Positions 46,763-55,214 of a stretch of 64,000 nucleotides of DNA are shown one piece after another. This DNA comes from Gemmatimonadetes bacterium T265 (GTDB taxonomy: Bacteria; Gemmatimonadota; Gemmatimonadetes; Gemmatimonadales; Gemmatimonadaceae): the NCBI GenBank assembly GCA_019973575.1, contig BPUI01000005.1, forward strand, positions 62,001 through 126,000, in the 5' to 3' direction. A program made the translations under genes and the position numbers. The notes beneath the pieces are model-generated. The model saw only the letters and a list, made by a program, of their open reading frames with translations. It had not been told where the DNA came from and did not search any database. Position 1 is the first letter of the stretch. Every line of letters begins with the position of its first letter.

Positions 46763-46841
46763 AGCCGGACAGACCTCGCAGAGACTCGATACCGGTGCAC
46801 CGCTGCGTTCCCACACATGAAGCACCTGAACTAACACTCAA

Positions 46842-46855
46842 CAAGTGAACACTTA
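46842..46855. promoter_or_regulatory. AAGTG-N2-CACTT palindrome 1, hxlR side
   Basis: CAAGTGAACACTTA, core AAGTGAACACTT perfect (46843-46854). On the minus strand it follows TATAAG directly, so it overlaps the likely hxlR -10 and start site. Confidence 0.78.
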
Positions 46856-46885
46856 TACAACATTGCCGCAAGTCGGTCCGTTCGG

Positions 46886-46899
46886 GATGTGTTCACTTC
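46886..46899. promoter_or_regulatory. AAGTG-N2-CACTT palindrome 2, parA -35
   Basis: GATGTGTTCACTTC, one mismatch. It directly abuts the TTGACG -35 box of the parA promoter (46900-46905). Centre to centre 44 bp from palindrome 1, about four helical turns. Confidence 0.72.
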
Positions 46900-46927
46900 T
46901 TGACGATGTGCGCGAACATCGTACAAT
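46900..46927 (+). promoter_or_regulatory. parA promoter
   Basis: TTGACG (46900-46905), 16-bp spacer, TACAAT (46922-46927): a good sigma70-type promoter on the plus strand, reading into parA. Expected start near 46934, leaving a leader of about 125 bp to the parA GTG that contains palindrome 3. Confidence 0.7.
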
Positions 46928-46979
46928 GCTCGACCAAGCCGGATCATCTCACATCCGGTAGAAGTGCGCAGCTAAATAG

Positions 46980-46993
46980 AAAGTGTTCACTTC
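46980..46993. promoter_or_regulatory. AAGTG-N2-CACTT palindrome 3, parA leader
   Basis: AAAGTGTTCACTTC, one mismatch at the outer base. It lies downstream of the promoter start and 66 bp before parA. A half-site GAAGTG also occurs at 46961. Confidence 0.72.
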
Positions 46994-47059
46994 CACGCGA
47001 ACGCCGCCATACACCGCGAATGGCAGCGTTCTCACACGTTCTAGCCAAACCGGCCCATC

Positions 47060-47866
47060 GTGCACCGGATCGCCGTCGTGAACTTCAAGGGCGGGGTAGG
47101 GAAGACCACCACCGCCGTCAACCTCGCCGCTGGCCTGGCCCGCTCGGGCCGACGCGTGCTGCTGGTCGACCTCGACGGCCAGGCCAACGCCAGCCTGGGC
47201 CTCGGCATCGCGCGCGACGACCTGACCCCGTCCATCGCCGCAGTCGTGTTGGAAGGTCGGCCCATGAGCGACGTCCTCCGGTCGACTGACGTCGACAGTC
47301 TCTCGCTCGTGACGGCCGACCCGGCGCTCTACGGCGCGGACGCGACGCTCGCGTCGAAGATGGGCCGCGAAACCCGCCTCGCGAAGGCGCTCCGGGGCGT
47401 TGAAGACCGCTTCGACGTCGCCGTCTTCGACTGCTCGCCGGCGCTGTCCGTGATCACCGCCAACGCGCTCCTGGCGTGCGACACGGCCGTCGTACCCGTC
47501 GTGCCCGAGTACTACGCGGTCGAGGGCCTCGCCACCCTCGAGGCGACGCTCGACGAGCTGCGCGAGGCAGTAGAGCGCCCGATCCCGGTGCTCGGCGTCG
47601 TCCTGAGCCGCGTGACGACCGGCGAGCGTGCGACGGCGGAGCTGGCCGCGGCGATTCGCGCCCATTACGGGCCCGTGGTGTTCGACACACCGGTGCGCAA
47701 GAACATCCGGCTCGCCGAGGCGCCGAGCCACGGCCGGGACATCATCGGCTACGCGCCGGACTCGCCGGGCGCGAAGGACTTCCGCGCCCTCACGGCCGAG
47801 GTGCTCGCGCGCGTCGAGCGGTTCGCGGCGGGGCAGGGCGTGCCGCGCGCGACGGCCGCGGCCTGA
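47060..47866 (+). CDS. parA: ParA-family plasmid partition ATPase
   Basis: 268 residues from GTG 47060: deviant Walker A VVNFKGGVGKTTTAVNLA at residues 7-24, LLVDLDGQANASLGLG, FDVAVFDCSPALSVITANALLACDTAVVPVVPEYYAVEGLATL and the C-terminal NIRLAEAPSHGRDIIGYAPDSPGA. This last signature is of the chromosomal Soj type without an N-terminal HTH, so it needs a separate DNA-binding regulator. It positions plasmid copies via a gradient on the nucleoid. The likely partner is the RHH protein 14 bp downstream. Confidence 0.93.
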   Translation: MHRIAVVNFKGGVGKTTTAVNLAAGLARSGRRVLLVDLDGQANASLGLGIARDDLTPSIAAVVLEGRPMSDVLRSTDVDSLSLVTADPALYGADATLASKMGRETRLAKALRGVEDRFDVAVFDCSPALSVITANALLACDTAVVPVVPEYYAVEGLATLEATLDELREAVERPIPVLGVVLSRVTTGERATAELAAAIRAHYGPVVFDTPVRKNIRLAEAPSHGRDIIGYAPDSPGAKDFRALTAEVLARVERFAAGQGVPRATAAA

Positions 47867-47880
47867 GCGGCGGGCGCAAC

Positions 47881-48489
47881 ATGGCGAAGGCACGCACACC
47901 CAACCCGTCGCGGATCGGGAAGACGCTCGGCGCCATCCTTAGCGTGCCGCGCCGGAGCGCGACCGACGAGTCCAGCGAGGCGGACGCGAGCGAACCGGAG
48001 GACCCCAACGTTCCGGGGACGCCGGACGCCCCGGCATCCGACGCCGATAGCGAGCCCGCGCAGCCTCACGCCCCCCCGGAAACGCGAGTCGACGACGCGC
48101 GAGCGGCGACCCGTACTGCGGCCGACCCTGCGCCCCCCACGACAGCCCCCGAGCCGCTGACGACGATCGCACCTGCGCCGACGCCGACGAGCGCCACGCC
48201 GCGCGGCATCACCCCAGACGCGATCGTCGACGAGGCCGACGTCGATACCGACGTCGGCGCCGGAACGCGGCGGAAGAAGCGCGAGACGTTCCTCCTCCCC
48301 GAGGAGCTCGCGGACGCGATGCGGAACGCGATCGTGCACCTATCCGGGCCGCCGCTCTACTACACGCTCGCCGAGTTCGGCGAGCACGCGATCCGCAGCT
48401 ACATCGCCGAACTCGAACGCGAGCACAACAGTGGCCGACCGTTCCCGCGGCGGCCGCGGGCGGTGCGGCAGGGTCGCCCGCTGCGGTGA
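47881..48489 (+). CDS. Putative partition partner with a C-terminal DNA-binding segment (ribbon-helix-helix-like)
   Basis: 202 residues from ATG 47881. A basic N-terminus (KARTPNPSRIGKTLGAILS), a long acidic Pro/Asp/Ala-rich linker, then RRKKRETFLLPEELADAMRNAIVHLSGPPLYYTLAEFGEHAIRSYIAELEREHNSG, where KRETFLLPEELADAMRNA looks like the beta strand and first helix of a ribbon-helix-helix fold. It follows parA immediately, so it is probably the centromere-binding partner. It is not a ParB with a CTPase domain. Assignment rests on context and a short motif. Confidence 0.6.
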   Translation: MAKARTPNPSRIGKTLGAILSVPRRSATDESSEADASEPEDPNVPGTPDAPASDADSEPAQPHAPPETRVDDARAATRTAADPAPPTTAPEPLTTIAPAPTPTSATPRGITPDAIVDEADVDTDVGAGTRRKKRETFLLPEELADAMRNAIVHLSGPPLYYTLAEFGEHAIRSYIAELEREHNSGRPFPRRPRAVRQGRPLR

Positions 48490-48690
48490 ACCCGCCCGAG
48501 CCGTTAGGCACCTGCTCGTTCCGAACCTGCGGTTCCCCTGACTCCTGACGTCGCCGGCCGCCGTCGGCGGCGGCGCGCAACGTCCGCGTACCGATTGCCG
48601 TGCCTTGCAGCGCCCCCGAGCGCAGCCGCACGCGCCGACTCATGCGAGCCCGCACACAGAATTCCGGACAGGCCCCGATGCGTGATGCGC

Positions 48691-49020
48691 TCCGCGCTTG
48701 AGCCCACCCTGCTCCGCGTTTGAACCACCCTTGCGCCGCGTTCGAACCCACCCTGCGCCGGGTTTGAACCACCCCTCTGCCGCGTTCGAGCCACCCCTGC
48801 TCCGCTTTTGAACCACCCTTGCGGTTCGGTAGCGAGTTTTCCGGGGTCTGGAGGGCGCGGGCGACGCTCCGCGTTTGAGACACCCCTGGCCGTCGTCGGT
48901 GGTCGCGTCCCGACGCGCGCGGCACCCATTCTCCGCGTTTGAACCACCCTTGGGTTGCTGTTCGGCTCGGAACGGATGTCGGCCCGCTATACCCCTCTTC
49001 CGCGTTTGAACCACCCTTGC
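48691..49020. repeat. Nine iterons, candidate plasmid origin of replication
   Basis: Consensus TCCGCGTTTGAACCACCCTT plus GC, 22 bp. Six copies start at 48691, 48713, 48735, 48757, 48779 and 48801, i.e. an exact 22-bp (two-turn) period. Three more at about 48868, 48932 and 48999 are spaced by 64-67 bp. Copies 2, 8 and 9 match best; others vary at a few positions. The array ends about 100 bp before the rep start codon, as in iteron plasmids where Rep binds the repeats. Confidence 0.9.
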
Positions 49021-49044
49021 TGTCCGCCCGCCCGCGGGTACGTG

Positions 49045-49072
49045 TTGTACCTGGGTATGTGGGTAGTACAGA
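49045..49072 (+). promoter_or_regulatory. Candidate rep promoter
   Basis: TTGTAC (49045-49050), 16-bp spacer, TACAGA (49067-49072), between the last iteron and rep. A perfect hairpin GGCGCC-TGC-GGCGCC follows at 49082-49096 in the leader. Weak boxes, so moderate certainty. Confidence 0.4.
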
Positions 49073-49118
49073 TGCGGTACCGGCGCCTGCGGCGCCCAGG
49101 GCATCGGAGGATCACGAC

Positions 49119-50654
49119 GTGAGCAAAAAACGGCAGGCGACCGCCACCGCCGGACGCGCCAAGGGCGCGCGCCGGCGCGTCCGCACCGCTCCGATTGCCC
49201 CGCCCGATACCCTCGACCTGCTCCCGCCCGACGGCACCGTCTCAGTCGCGCAGGAGGCGGCGAACGGGCCCGACGGCGACGGCCGCCGCACGCGCGCGCG
49301 CATGGCCGTCGCCGTCGAGGCACACGGGATCGGCCGCCACGCGCGCCGGTTCGACCCGGACGACGAGGGGCAGTTCGCCTTCGAGCTGCGCTACCCGCGG
49401 GGAGACGGTGGGGAGGCACACTGGCGCGTCACGGCCGACAACAACACCGCCGTCGTCCTCGACGCCGGGACGGCCGAGGTGCTCGGCGCCGGCTCGGGCG
49501 TCTCGGCCCTTCAGCACGTCCACAAGCTCCCCGGCCCCCTCGCCCACGACCTCCTGGTCGTCGTCGGCGAGGACGTCAACCAGCGCACGCGACGCCGCTC
49601 CTGGAACGCGCGCGACATCGCCGACCGCACGTTCGAGTGGAGCATGACGGAACTCCTCACGCGCATGGGGAAGGGCGACCACGGGACGGCGTACCAGTCC
49701 CTTCGCGAGACGCTGATCCGGATGGCGCGCCTTCGCATTCAGGCCGCCGGCGGCGCGGGCCGGGAGGGAAAGCGGTGGACCAAGCGAACGGTCGTGTTCG
49801 GCCTCATCGACCGGCTCGAGATCCTCGAGGAGCCGGGCGAGACGCGCGTCCAGCTCACCATCTCGCACGATCTCGCGCAGACGCTGACCGAAGACTTCCG
49901 GCTGCTCCCGACGGACACGTACTGGGACATCCGCAACGGGCCGGCGCGCCGCCTGTACCAGGTACTCGACCTCGCGCGCTACGCGCACGACCACCGTGGC
50001 ACGGCGCAGCTCCGGGTGCCTGTGCACTACCTGCGCGACCGCGTCCCGGTCGACGAGCAGAAGACCACGCACCTCGTGCGCAAGCTCGACGCGATGCACG
50101 AAGAGCTGGTGCGCGTGCGGTACCTCGCGGCCATGCCGACCTACGCCGAAGCGACGGGCGACGACCTGCGCCGCTTCCCGACGTACCCGGGCAAGCGAGC
50201 CAAGATGCTCTCGGCCGTTTACGAGATCGTGCCGGCGCCGGCGGGGCAGGCGGTCTTGCCCGCGTCGACAGGGAACGGCGGGACGACGCTCGGCGACACG
50301 GGCGGCGCGCGTGGCGGCGAGTCGACCGGGGGTATGGCGGCCGAGAAGGCGGCCCTCCTGGCATCGCTCGGCGTCGTCCGCCCGGAGCGCTCGGATCTGC
50401 ACGGCCGCGTGCTGGAGGTGCAACAGCTCTGCGGAGACGGCAGCAACGTCGGGTTGTACACGGCGTTGTGTAAGGCCCTGCCGGACGAGGTGTACCGGCG
50501 CGTCGTGGCCACGGTGCGCGCCGACCGGCCGCAGGTCCCACGCGCCGCCTTCGTGCGCCTCGCGCGGGACGAGCTGCAGCGGTACGGGATCGAGATACCC
50601 GCCGCGGCGACGGACCGTCGCGTGCTCGCCGAGTTGCTACGGGAACCCGGTTGA
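49119..50654 (+). CDS. Replication initiator protein (RepA/RPA-like)
   Basis: 511 residues from GTG 49119, with GGAGG nine bases before. Central part: WNARDIADRTFEWSMTELLTRMGKGDHGTAYQSLRETLIRMARLRIQ, a winged-helix replication-initiator pattern, and VIFGLIDRLEILEEPGETRVQLTISHDLAQTLTEDFRLLPTDTYWDIRNGPARRLYQVLDLARYAH, as in the replication initiator protein A family. The C-terminus carries an Arg-rich segment. Next to the iterons it is expected to bind them and open the origin. The start is chosen over upstream in-frame codons, which would run into the iterons. Confidence 0.85.
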   Translation: MSKKRQATATAGRAKGARRRVRTAPIAPPDTLDLLPPDGTVSVAQEAANGPDGDGRRTRARMAVAVEAHGIGRHARRFDPDDEGQFAFELRYPRGDGGEAHWRVTADNNTAVVLDAGTAEVLGAGSGVSALQHVHKLPGPLAHDLLVVVGEDVNQRTRRRSWNARDIADRTFEWSMTELLTRMGKGDHGTAYQSLRETLIRMARLRIQAAGGAGREGKRWTKRTVVFGLIDRLEILEEPGETRVQLTISHDLAQTLTEDFRLLPTDTYWDIRNGPARRLYQVLDLARYAHDHRGTAQLRVPVHYLRDRVPVDEQKTTHLVRKLDAMHEELVRVRYLAAMPTYAEATGDDLRRFPTYPGKRAKMLSAVYEIVPAPAGQAVLPASTGNGGTTLGDTGGARGGESTGGMAAEKAALLASLGVVRPERSDLHGRVLEVQQLCGDGSNVGLYTALCKALPDEVYRRVVATVRADRPQVPRAAFVRLARDELQRYGIEIPAAATDRRVLAELLREPG

Positions 50655-51686: not shown

Positions 51687-53999
51687 GTGATTGCCGCCGT
51701 GTCCAACGGCCGCCGCTTCGCCGGCCTCGCGCGCTACCTCACGCTCACGCGCGGGGGCGAGCCGACGCGCGCGGCGTGGATCGTCGGGCGCAACCTGCCC
51801 GTCGACGACGCGCTGCTCGCCGCGAAGGTGATGCAGGCGACCGCGGCCGCGAACGCGCGCGTGCGCGACCCCGTGTACCACGTCGCGCTCGCGTTCGACC
51901 CAGCCGACCCGGTGACGCGCGGCGGGACGGAGCGCGTCGCCGACCGCGTGCTCCGCGACGTCGGGCTCGCGGGCCACCAGGTGCTGCTCGTCGCACACGA
52001 GGACCGGGCGCACCCGCACGTGCACCTCATGGTCAACCGCGTGCACCCCGAGACCGGGCGCGCGTGGGACCGCGCGCACGACTACCGACGGCTCGAAGCG
52101 TCGCTCCGTGCGGTCGAGCAGGAACTCGGGCTACGCCTCGTCCCCGGGCGCCACGCGCCCGCCCTCGACGTCGCCGTGCAGGTGCCCGCGCGTGACGACG
52201 GCCGGCTCCACCGGCATGCCGATCAGGCACTCGCGCTGGCGAGCGCGGCGGGACGCAATGACGGCCTTGATGCGCGCACGCATGGCGAGCGGCGGCGCGA
52301 GATGCGAACCGCCGAGGTCGCCCTCATCGCGCAGGCCGCCGCACTGCGCCACGTGTTCGCCGCGAGCACGGCCTGGGACGACCTCACGCGCGCGTTGGAG
52401 GCGGCCGGCGTGCACCTGGAGCGCCGCGGCCAGGGACTCGTGGTCACCGACGGTCGCACGGCCGTGAAGGCGTCCCGCGTGGCCCGGGAGTGCGCCACGG
52501 CGCGGCTCGAGGCGCGGTTTGGCGAAGCGTACGACACGTGGGCGGCCCGTCGCGCGCCGTCCACCGAGCGCACGTCCATCGCGGGTCGGGGAGCGCGACG
52601 CCGGCCCGCAGCAACGGAGCATCCCATGGCAACGACGGTCACTCCCGTTCCCGACGAACTCGCCGAGCGCGCGGCGCGGCGCGGGCCCGTGCAGGCGGCT
52701 GAACTGGCGGACGCGGTGCGCGCCGCGGACTACGCCAGCCGCCAGCTCGTCGACCCCCACCGGGCGAACCCGGAACTCGCGCGTCCGATCGCCGAACAGT
52801 CGGTCGGCGCGCGACACGTCGTCGCGAGAATGGCGCAGTACGAATCGGTGCTCCAGGCCGGCATGGAGGCCGCGCGGGCGCGCGAGACGGTGGCGGTCGC
52901 GCGCGACGCGGTGAGCGACGGCGTGCACCTGACACGGGTCGCGCAGGGGGCGGAGCGGGAGGTGGTGAGCGCGGTCGAGAAGGCCTACCAGGACCCCGCC
53001 AAGGTCCGGCGCGAGGTCGACACCGCCGTGCAGCAGATCGGGTACGAGAAGACGGCCGAGCTGCTCCGGAAGACGCCCGAGGTGTTCGGCGCGCTGCGTG
53101 TGGCGGACGCGGAGATGCGGAAGGCGTGGGGCGTCGACGAGAAGCATGCCGACCGTCCCGCGCGGGCCGAGGCGTCGCACGCGGCGCTATTGCTGGACCG
53201 CGGCGAGCGGACACGCGCGGAGGCGCCGACGCCGGAGCAGATGACACGGCTCATGCAGGCCGCCGACCGGGCCGAGGTCGCCGCGGTGACGGCCGAGGCG
53301 ACGCTCGCGCGGTCACCGTCCGGGGACGCGCTCGCGCGGAGCATCGCGCGCGGCGTGGCGCGCCTCGACGACCGCGCGTTCGGCGAACTGAAGGCCGCGC
53401 TGCCGGTCGCGCGCGCGGAGCTGGCAGAGACGTTTCGGGAGGGCGCGGTGCAGGCGCTCGCGCGCGAGTCGGCCGGGCGCGTCCAGCACCTGCGCGAACA
53501 GGTCGGCGAGCGGCTGGGCGCGTCCGCGGGCGGCGGGGCGGCGCAGACCGGGGCGCAACTGGAGAGCGCCGCAGCGCTGCACGAGCGCGCGGCGCGGTCG
53601 CTCAACGACGGCCGCGAGCTGGCCCGCGTGCTCGGCCCGCGCGGGGCCGCCGAGCTGCCGGGGACGGCCGGACCCGAGCGCGGAGTCGCGCGTGAGGGCG
53701 CTCCGGCGGGGCGGGATGCCGCCACGGTCGGTGGGGATCGGGGCGGGGCGGGGCAGGGCGGGGTTGCCACGCCGCGCGAGCGGGTCGCGGCCGCAGACGT
53801 GGTTGCGCGCGCCGTGCACCAGGCCGTCCAGGCGCTCACGCCCGAGGAGCTGCAGGGGCTCGTCGCGGCGGTGCGCGCCGGCGTCGAGATCGTGAAGGCG
53901 ATTGGGCGGGCCGGCCCCGCCGCGCCCGCGATCGCGGCGCACCAGGCCGTGCGCGCGGGCGTCGCGCGCATGCTCACCGGGCCGGAGGTGGAGCGGTGA
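51687..53999 (+). CDS. MOBP-type relaxase (TraI/VirD2 family)
   Basis: 770 residues from GTG 51687. N-terminal relaxase domain: catalytic Tyr candidate Tyr17 in ARYLT, and the metal motif HEDRAHPHVHLMVNRVHPETGRAWD (His104, Asp106, His109, His111, His113) as in MOBP. The second half is long, Ala/Arg/Glu-rich and mostly helical, with no primase or helicase domain. It nicks oriT and leads the strand through the channel. The stop overlaps the next gene (GTGA). Confidence 0.92.
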   Translation: MIAAVSNGRRFAGLARYLTLTRGGEPTRAAWIVGRNLPVDDALLAAKVMQATAAANARVRDPVYHVALAFDPADPVTRGGTERVADRVLRDVGLAGHQVLLVAHEDRAHPHVHLMVNRVHPETGRAWDRAHDYRRLEASLRAVEQELGLRLVPGRHAPALDVAVQVPARDDGRLHRHADQALALASAAGRNDGLDARTHGERRREMRTAEVALIAQAAALRHVFAASTAWDDLTRALEAAGVHLERRGQGLVVTDGRTAVKASRVARECATARLEARFGEAYDTWAARRAPSTERTSIAGRGARRRPAATEHPMATTVTPVPDELAERAARRGPVQAAELADAVRAADYASRQLVDPHRANPELARPIAEQSVGARHVVARMAQYESVLQAGMEAARARETVAVARDAVSDGVHLTRVAQGAEREVVSAVEKAYQDPAKVRREVDTAVQQIGYEKTAELLRKTPEVFGALRVADAEMRKAWGVDEKHADRPARAEASHAALLLDRGERTRAEAPTPEQMTRLMQAADRAEVAAVTAEATLARSPSGDALARSIARGVARLDDRAFGELKAALPVARAELAETFREGAVQALARESAGRVQHLREQVGERLGASAGGGAAQTGAQLESAAALHERAARSLNDGRELARVLGPRGAAELPGTAGPERGVAREGAPAGRDAATVGGDRGGAGQGGVATPRERVAAADVVARAVHQAVQALTPEELQGLVAAVRAGVEIVKAIGRAGPAAPAIAAHQAVRAGVARMLTGPEVER

Positions 54000-54298
54000 T
54001 CACACTCGTCATCGCACTGCTCTGCGCGCGACTGATCGCGGCCGCATTCGGTGCGGTGCTCGGCATCGCGCTCGCCGCCGTCGGACTCGCGGTCGAGGTG
54101 GCGTGGGCGGCCGCACGGTGGGTGCTCTGGCCCGCGCTCGTGTTCGGCGCCCGCGTGGTGCGGGCGCTCACGGTCGGGCGCGGGTCCGTCCCCTACACTC
54201 CGGCTACAAGGCGGTGGGCGCCGCGTCCGGCGCGCGGCGGTCGAGCACTCGCCCGACAGGCGGCACTGCTCGCCGGCACTCGCGCCGCGCGCGCCTGA
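53996..54298 (+). CDS. Small membrane protein after the relaxase
   Basis: 100 residues from GTG 53996. Strongly hydrophobic N-terminus: LVIALLCARLIAAAFGAVLGIALAAVGLAVEVAWAAARWVLWPALVFGARVV, two or three helices, with a basic tail. No family recognised. Coupled to the relaxase by GTGA overlap, so perhaps a mobilization accessory. Confidence 0.55.
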   Translation: MITLVIALLCARLIAAAFGAVLGIALAAVGLAVEVAWAAARWVLWPALVFGARVVRALTVGRGSVPYTPATRRWAPRPARGGRALARQAALLAGTRAARA

Positions 54299-54386
54299 CC
54301 ACCCCCGAAGAGCTGGAGGCGGCGCGCCGGCGGGTGCGCCAAGTCACCGCTCAAACCGCAGAACCGGCCCGGCCGGCCCCGCCACG

Positions 54387-55214
54387 ATGTCCGCTGCACC
54401 GCACCCCGAACGCCCCATGACCGTGCTGGTCGTCGACGACGAACCGCTCGGCCGGCAGCGCCTGTTGAGCCTCCTCGAGCGAGAGGCGGACGTCACAATC
54501 ATTGGCGAGTGCGAGGGCGGCATGGATGCGTTGAACGCAATCACGCGCGACGGTCCGGAACTCGTCTTCCTTGACGTCCGCATGCCCGACCTGAGTGGCG
54601 TGGGAGTGATCGAGGCCCTGGACGAGGCGAGCCGCCCGGAGGTGGTCTTCGTCACCGCGTTCGACGAGTACATGGAGCGGGCGTTTCACCTGCACGCGGT
54701 CGACTACCTGCGGAAGCCGTTTACGGACGACGACTTCGCCTCGGCGTTGGCGCGCGCCCGCCGGCTCGTGGCCGGGCGCCGAGCCGTCGCGGAAGGCGCG
54801 ACGGACGCCCGCGTCGTGGAGCGGCGCCAGGCGGTCGCAGCCGCCGTGGAACAGGCCGTCCCATGCACCGGGCGACACCTGCCGGTCCGTGCGCGGGCGG
54901 ACGGGCGCTGGAAGCTGCTCGACCCCGACACCGTGGTCGCCGTTGAAGCGGATGCTGGCGTGGCCGTGCGCCTGTACGTCGGCACCGAGGCGCACACCTG
55001 GGATGCGACGATGACGCGGGCGGAGCAGGCCACGGCGCGGTTCGGGTTCGTCCGCGTGCACCGGCGCTGGGTCATCAACCCCGACCACGTCGTCGAGATC
55101 GTGCCGCGGCACCGCGGCGAGTACACGCTCGTGCTGACCAACGCGACTGAAGTACCCACCGGCCGGAGCTACCGGGAGAACGTCGAGCGGGCGCTCGGGC
55201 TCGCGGACTGTTAG
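54387..55214 (+). CDS. LytTR-family response regulator
   Basis: About 275 residues. Receiver domain TVLVVDDEPLGRQRLLSLLEREADVTIIGECEGGMDALNAI with phosphoacceptor Asp in LVFLDVRMPDLSGV and Lys in DYLRKPFTDDDF; C-terminal LytTR DNA-binding domain: LLDPDTVVAVEADAGVAVRLYVG, FGFVRVHRRWVINPDHVVEIVPRHRGEYTLVLTNATEVPTGRSYRENVE. ATG 54387 (MSAAPHPERP) or 54417. No histidine kinase is adjacent; the one at 23198 is far away and of a different kind. It may react to a cell-density or surface cue. Confidence 0.9.
   Translation: MSAAPHPERPMTVLVVDDEPLGRQRLLSLLEREADVTIIGECEGGMDALNAITRDGPELVFLDVRMPDLSGVGVIEALDEASRPEVVFVTAFDEYMERAFHLHAVDYLRKPFTDDDFASALARARRLVAGRRAVAEGATDARVVERRQAVAAAVEQAVPCTGRHLPVRARADGRWKLLDPDTVVAVEADAGVAVRLYVGTEAHTWDATMTRAEQATARFGFVRVHRRWVINPDHVVEIVPRHRGEYTLVLTNATEVPTGRSYRENVERALGLADC

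Follow-up and report, generated by a model that had tools for sequence, protein, structure and literature searches.

The locus lies on a 208,826-bp contig (C5), which forms a separate replicon in the six-contig, 5.63-Mb genome of strain T265; the window covers 64,000 nucleotides of this contig. The genes follow the order parA, small protein, iteron array, rep and MOBP-type relaxase, all on the plus strand. The parA-like partition ATPase (47060-47866; AAA_31, E 1e-50) is directly followed by the gene for a 202-aa protein without a family match (47881-48489), which is, from its position and appearance, a candidate ParB-like centromere-binding partner. Next come the array, the rep gene (49119-50654; 511 aa), which likely starts at the GTG at 49119, and the gene for a MOBP/VirD2-type relaxase (51687-53999; PF03432, E 5e-28); a response regulator with a LytTR DNA-binding domain is encoded beside the latter (54051-55214). 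The parA gene, the small par-like gene and the relaxase are plasmid-like traits. No overlap was found between the contig ends, but joining them completes a DUF998 gene, whose last ~14 codons lie on the other side; this is consistent with a circular C5 but no proof of it. The 7-mer GTTAGGC/GCCTAAC occurs 110 times on C5, on both strands, compared with ~17 expected from base composition (sites in the window include 48503 and 51204); it was not among the top C5 words in a higher-order Markov test.

Rep belongs to the RPA family (PF10134, replication initiator protein A), which it matches with E 9.8e-11 and 42.1 bits (gathering score, 27 bits); the match spans Rep residues 165-307 and covers only profile positions 64-199 of 228. 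NCBIfam, PHROGs and PADLOC gave no match for Rep and no closer named family than RPA, and peptide-pattern searches of genome contigs and viral contigs returned no relatives. RepE, pi and TrfA have two winged-helix domains, and a winged-helix fold is expected for Rep. When a nine-sequence profile was compared with solved Rep structures, RepE of the F plasmid ranked best at a non-significant E of 0.35-1.3; a single-sequence structure model of Rep (mean pLDDT 40.5) was discarded.

Layout and statistics of the repeat array

Nine copies of a ~19-bp repeat lie upstream of rep, all on the plus strand, starting (at CCGCG) at 48692, 48714, 48736, 48758, 48780, 48802, 48869, 48933 and 49000. The first six form the main cluster (48692-48823; consensus CCGCGTTTGAACCACCC[T/C]T) with five intervals of exactly 22 bp, and three outlying copies follow: one 67 bp after copy six (48869-48887; CCGCGTTTGAGACACCCCT), one 64 bp further on (48933-48951; CCGCGTTTGAACCACCCTT) and one after another 67 bp (49000-49018; CCGCGTTTGAACCACCCTT), which ends ~100 bp 5' of rep. 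The copies are not identical: the exact 13-mer GTTTGAACCACCC is present in only four of the nine, and an additional C is present in copies 1 (GAGCCCACCC) and 3 (GAACCCACCC). Self-identity at lag 22 reaches 0.75 for 48690-48824, compared with a maximum of 0.51 in 2000 shuffles (lags 10-45), and this is the top lag-22 stretch of the whole window, with no other coming near. A weight matrix derived from the array recovered exactly its nine copies on the 209-kb contig, at 23-35 bits; the next match scored 9 bits. Copy mapping, shuffles and weight matrix thus bear out the original prediction of nine repeats, six at 22 bp and three at 64-67 bp. Across the 5.63-Mb genome the core GTTTGAACCACCC occurs five times, four times in the array and once on contig C4, and the reversed pattern, used as a control, does not occur.

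The core had also been described as being of an unfamiliar type. For the exact sequence this holds, as a search of the array DNA against plasmids at distant sensitivity returned no match; iteron sequences are usually plasmid-specific, however, and unfamiliarity alone does not make the core novel. Among 395 genomes of the phylum, multiple matches to the 22-bp-spaced core were confined to the T265 genome, with one isolated pair in each of six others; viral contigs held one lone, chance-like copy of the 17-mer, and Rfam had no match near the array. From these searches, the repeat sequence appears to be lineage-specific and private to the plasmids of this strain.

Between the last iteron and the gene lies the rep leader (49021-49118, plus strand), which shares GTAGTAC[A/T]GAT with the rep leader of contig C6, discussed below. 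It holds the lowest GC content near the array (53% at 49035-49079, with 49% in the C6 leader and ~74% for the contig). We consider the leader a candidate rep promoter or operator and a possible unwinding region; a sigma-70 promoter search of it gave no match. The most AT-rich stretch of the window (46820-47013; 36-49% GC in 45-bp windows) is found just upstream of parA and is a candidate unwinding element, centromere or promoter.

A related array on contig C6

The genome encodes a second Rep, 43% identical to that of C5, on the 94,926-bp contig C6. In the orientation of rep, the C6 array consists of TCGTCCG[C/T]GAACCACCC copies with five intervals of 22 bp followed by 69, 66 and 68 bp, and it resembles the C5 array in its six 22-bp-spaced and three outlying copies, its GAACCACCC half and its rep leader. 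The two differ in the 5' half of the iteron (CCGCGTTT in C5, TCGTCCGC in C6) and in a tenth, upstream C6 copy, which is cut off by an insertion sequence. This 1380-bp IS256-family element (L008:9809-11188), accompanied by an 8-bp duplication (CGCGACGG), is located at the first C6 copy, and in its absence the tenth copy would be placed 70 bp upstream. In C5, a solo IS256-family terminal inverted repeat (48651-48679, plus strand) is located 12 bp before the first iteron, and IS256-family insertions are found at nearly the same place, the upstream edge of the array, in both origins.

The outlying copies are separated by spacers of 46, 43 and 46 bp in C5 and 48, 45 and 47 bp in C6, which have no sequence similarity between the two contigs (shuffle p 0.95, 0.58 and 0.67). 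In contrast, the stretch from the last iteron to rep is similar beyond all shuffles (0/500). Selection appears to act on the spacing itself, since only the lengths of the spacers agree between the two contigs whereas the rep leader is conserved in sequence. This conservation, from the comparison of a single pair of origins, is the best evidence suggesting that the outlying copies function. Their spacings (64-70 bp over both arrays) correspond to 6.1-6.7 helical turns, or about three iteron units, and exact helical phasing is therefore not a constraint on the outliers.

Assignment as a probable replication origin

Searching PLSDB with tblastn, we found RPA relatives of the C5 and C6 Reps only in Rubrobacter and Thermaceae plasmids. 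In all six of these RPA plasmids (from Rubrobacter, Meiothermus, Allomeiothermus and Thermus) an iteron array adjoins rep, and most of the six also carry separate copies. The plasmids of Rubrobacter radiotolerans (NZ_CP007515 and NZ_CP007516) and R. indicoceani (NZ_CP031117) are among the closest to C5: an RPA rep of similar length is preceded by an iteron cluster with a pitch of 22 bp (NZ_CP007515) or 23 bp (NZ_CP007516, NZ_CP031117), separate outlying copies are present, and two of the three (L083, L118) share with C5 the order parA, small gene, array and rep. However, their iteron reads TA[C/T]CGGGC..., their Rep shows just ~26% identity along part of its length, and their separate copies precede the cluster by ~350-410 bp on the side away from rep, whereas those of C5 are between cluster and rep. 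The Thermaceae plasmids pMtWR-220, pMESIL01 and pTHEOS01 also carry an array beside the RPA gene with a pitch near multiples of the helical turn, but differ in that pitch (33 bp in pMESIL01 and pMtWR-220, mixed 22/23/33 bp in pTHEOS01 of Thermus), in their iteron (TATCGGAA[T/G]ACTTGG) and, in Thermus, in an array downstream of rep. One Rubrobacter RPA Rep (L083:2872-4278) has both RPA and TrfA matches and, at its C-terminus, a weak DnaA_N-like match just below the cut-off (E 3e-5); it is possibly a helicase-recruiting fusion. Iteron sequences differ group by group among these plasmids, as expected of iteron plasmids. Among the papers searched, nothing on point was found on PF10134 or on iterons in Gemmatimonadota.

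Seen against the six RPA plasmids, the C5 array appears to be an ordinary iteron origin in a plasmid of the RPA type, known in kind and lineage-specific in its repeat. We consider it highly probable (about 0.88), from sequence comparison, that the array and rep form the origin from which a ~209-kb plasmid of a soil-type bacterium replicates, relying on its own RPA-family initiator. That an iteron origin precedes a Rep gene, as originally predicted, is supported by the PF10134 match, the paralogous C6 origin and the arrays of the six other RPA plasmids. Direct repeats of 17-22 bp are likewise found in R6K, pPS10 and RK2, where they are bound by Rep monomers; 22-bp iterons occur in R6K and pPS10 (PMC4980987). 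The initiators of these plasmids (Rep_3/TrfA) belong to other Pfam families, and no exact DnaA boxes were recognised at the C5 origin, a further difference from those systems. Near the array, the search for exact boxes (TTWTNCACA) returned none, with one single-mismatch site inside the start of rep, and the host consensus may differ. DnaA boxes are not needed in all iteron origins.

Among other readings, the one that survives best, although we regard it as unlikely, holds that the array mainly regulates rep, as an operator or incompatibility locus, and that replication truly starts elsewhere, for example in the AT-rich stretch before parA. The AT-richest stretch of the window is indeed found there (46820-47013), ~1.7 kb from the array; no clear AT-rich unwinding element adjoins the array itself, where GC content has its local minimum of 53%; and the GC skew minimum of C5 is away from the array, in an origin signal that is not significant (shuffle p 0.13). 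The joined contig used for the skew carried one duplicated base at position 200000, which does not affect this outcome. However, a dense cluster with a 22-bp pitch adjoins the RPA rep on C6 as well, the six other RPA plasmids have a comparable arrangement, and for an operator alone six phased copies at 300 bp from the gene would be superfluous. Somewhat less likely still, the repeats could serve partition, as a centromere to which the ParB-like protein of 47881-48489 binds instead of Rep. They sit directly between the par genes and rep, and in some plasmids the partition site consists of direct repeats at short spacing; yet C6 keeps the layout with no parA-like gene upstream of its array (the only ParA-like match in the examined stretch lies beyond rep), and in Meiothermus the iterons are beside rep although the par genes are on its opposite side. 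Least credible is a decayed origin, damaged by IS insertion or deletion at its upstream edge, on a contig replicated by another system or within a larger replicon: the solo IS end before the first C5 copy, the full element at the C6 edge and the extra C in copies 1 and 3 would fit, but the array retains its six clustered and three outlying copies, the rep frame is intact over 511 aa and no second rep of the RPA family was found on C5.

For an origin driven by Rep, a mechanism can be proposed from characterised systems. Rep monomers bind iterons cooperatively in the required helical register, with half-turn shifts abolishing cooperativity, and dimers exist in solution, the monomer being the replication-active form (PMC4980987). 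The six-copy cluster, tandem direct repeats beside rep, has a near-integral pitch (22 bp, or 2.1 helical turns). It would serve as the replicator, with Rep monomers bound cooperatively at intervals of about two helical turns and to nearly the same side of the helix; Rep would then melt an adjacent AT-richer stretch, either the rep leader or the stretch before parA, and the host helicase would load. Binding of the repeats by the cognate Rep is something we infer from their conservation with C6 only. The outlying copies would provide extra Rep sites between the replicator and the rep promoter, where they would most likely titrate Rep, allow looping or handcuffing and help to repress rep. The original prediction that they are copy-number or handcuffing sites is plausible, and it is strengthened by the conserved C6 spacing. 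Outlying copies also occur in the relatives.

The half-conservation of the iteron suggests that one Rep domain changed its target, giving two compatible plasmids in one cell: the domain contacting the shared GAACCACCC may have kept its site and the other followed the replaced 5' half. With such a change each Rep would be specific for its own origin, allowing the C5 and C6 plasmids to coexist. Two co-resident, related origins with iterons differing in one half offer a natural test of divergence into compatible groups, as well as of why outlying iterons keep their distance. The C5 locus also provides an origin and a Rep that can be cloned, in a phylum for which plasmid tools are scarce.

RPA-like genes and a lone iteron elsewhere in Gemmatimonadaceae

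The single core occurrence outside the array belongs to a lone perfect iteron (17/17) at C4:33558-33574 (L009:7559), ~60 bp past a serine recombinase gene. By chance, the genome would be expected to hold about 0.001 such sites, and this one may be a relic or a trans-acting site. A bolder reading, to which we give very little weight, would set apart a sub-class of RPA origins within Gemmatimonadaceae. Its outliers would have an architectural role that depends on fixed distances (about three units, with sequence-free spacers), and the C4 iteron would be a trans-acting site for titration or timing. If true, it would link the replication of two plasmids.

C4 encodes a distant RPA-like Rep of its own. 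No iteron array was found within ~5 kb of the large RPA-like Reps of C4 and two other Gemmatimonadaceae replicons, and iterons are therefore not universal for RPA-like genes in this family. In addition, 24 of the 25 Gemmatimonadaceae members searched carry a single-copy RPA-like (PF10134) gene of ~280-350 aa (for example L065:1279-2136, L027:1432-2274, L117:3966-4802 and L116:3176-4219), which is also present in one-contig genomes and is thus chromosomal. No iterons were seen near this gene, where the repeats are short coding repeats in multiples of 12-15 bp. By its sequence, it appears to be a relative of the plasmid initiators that has been kept as a conserved gene.
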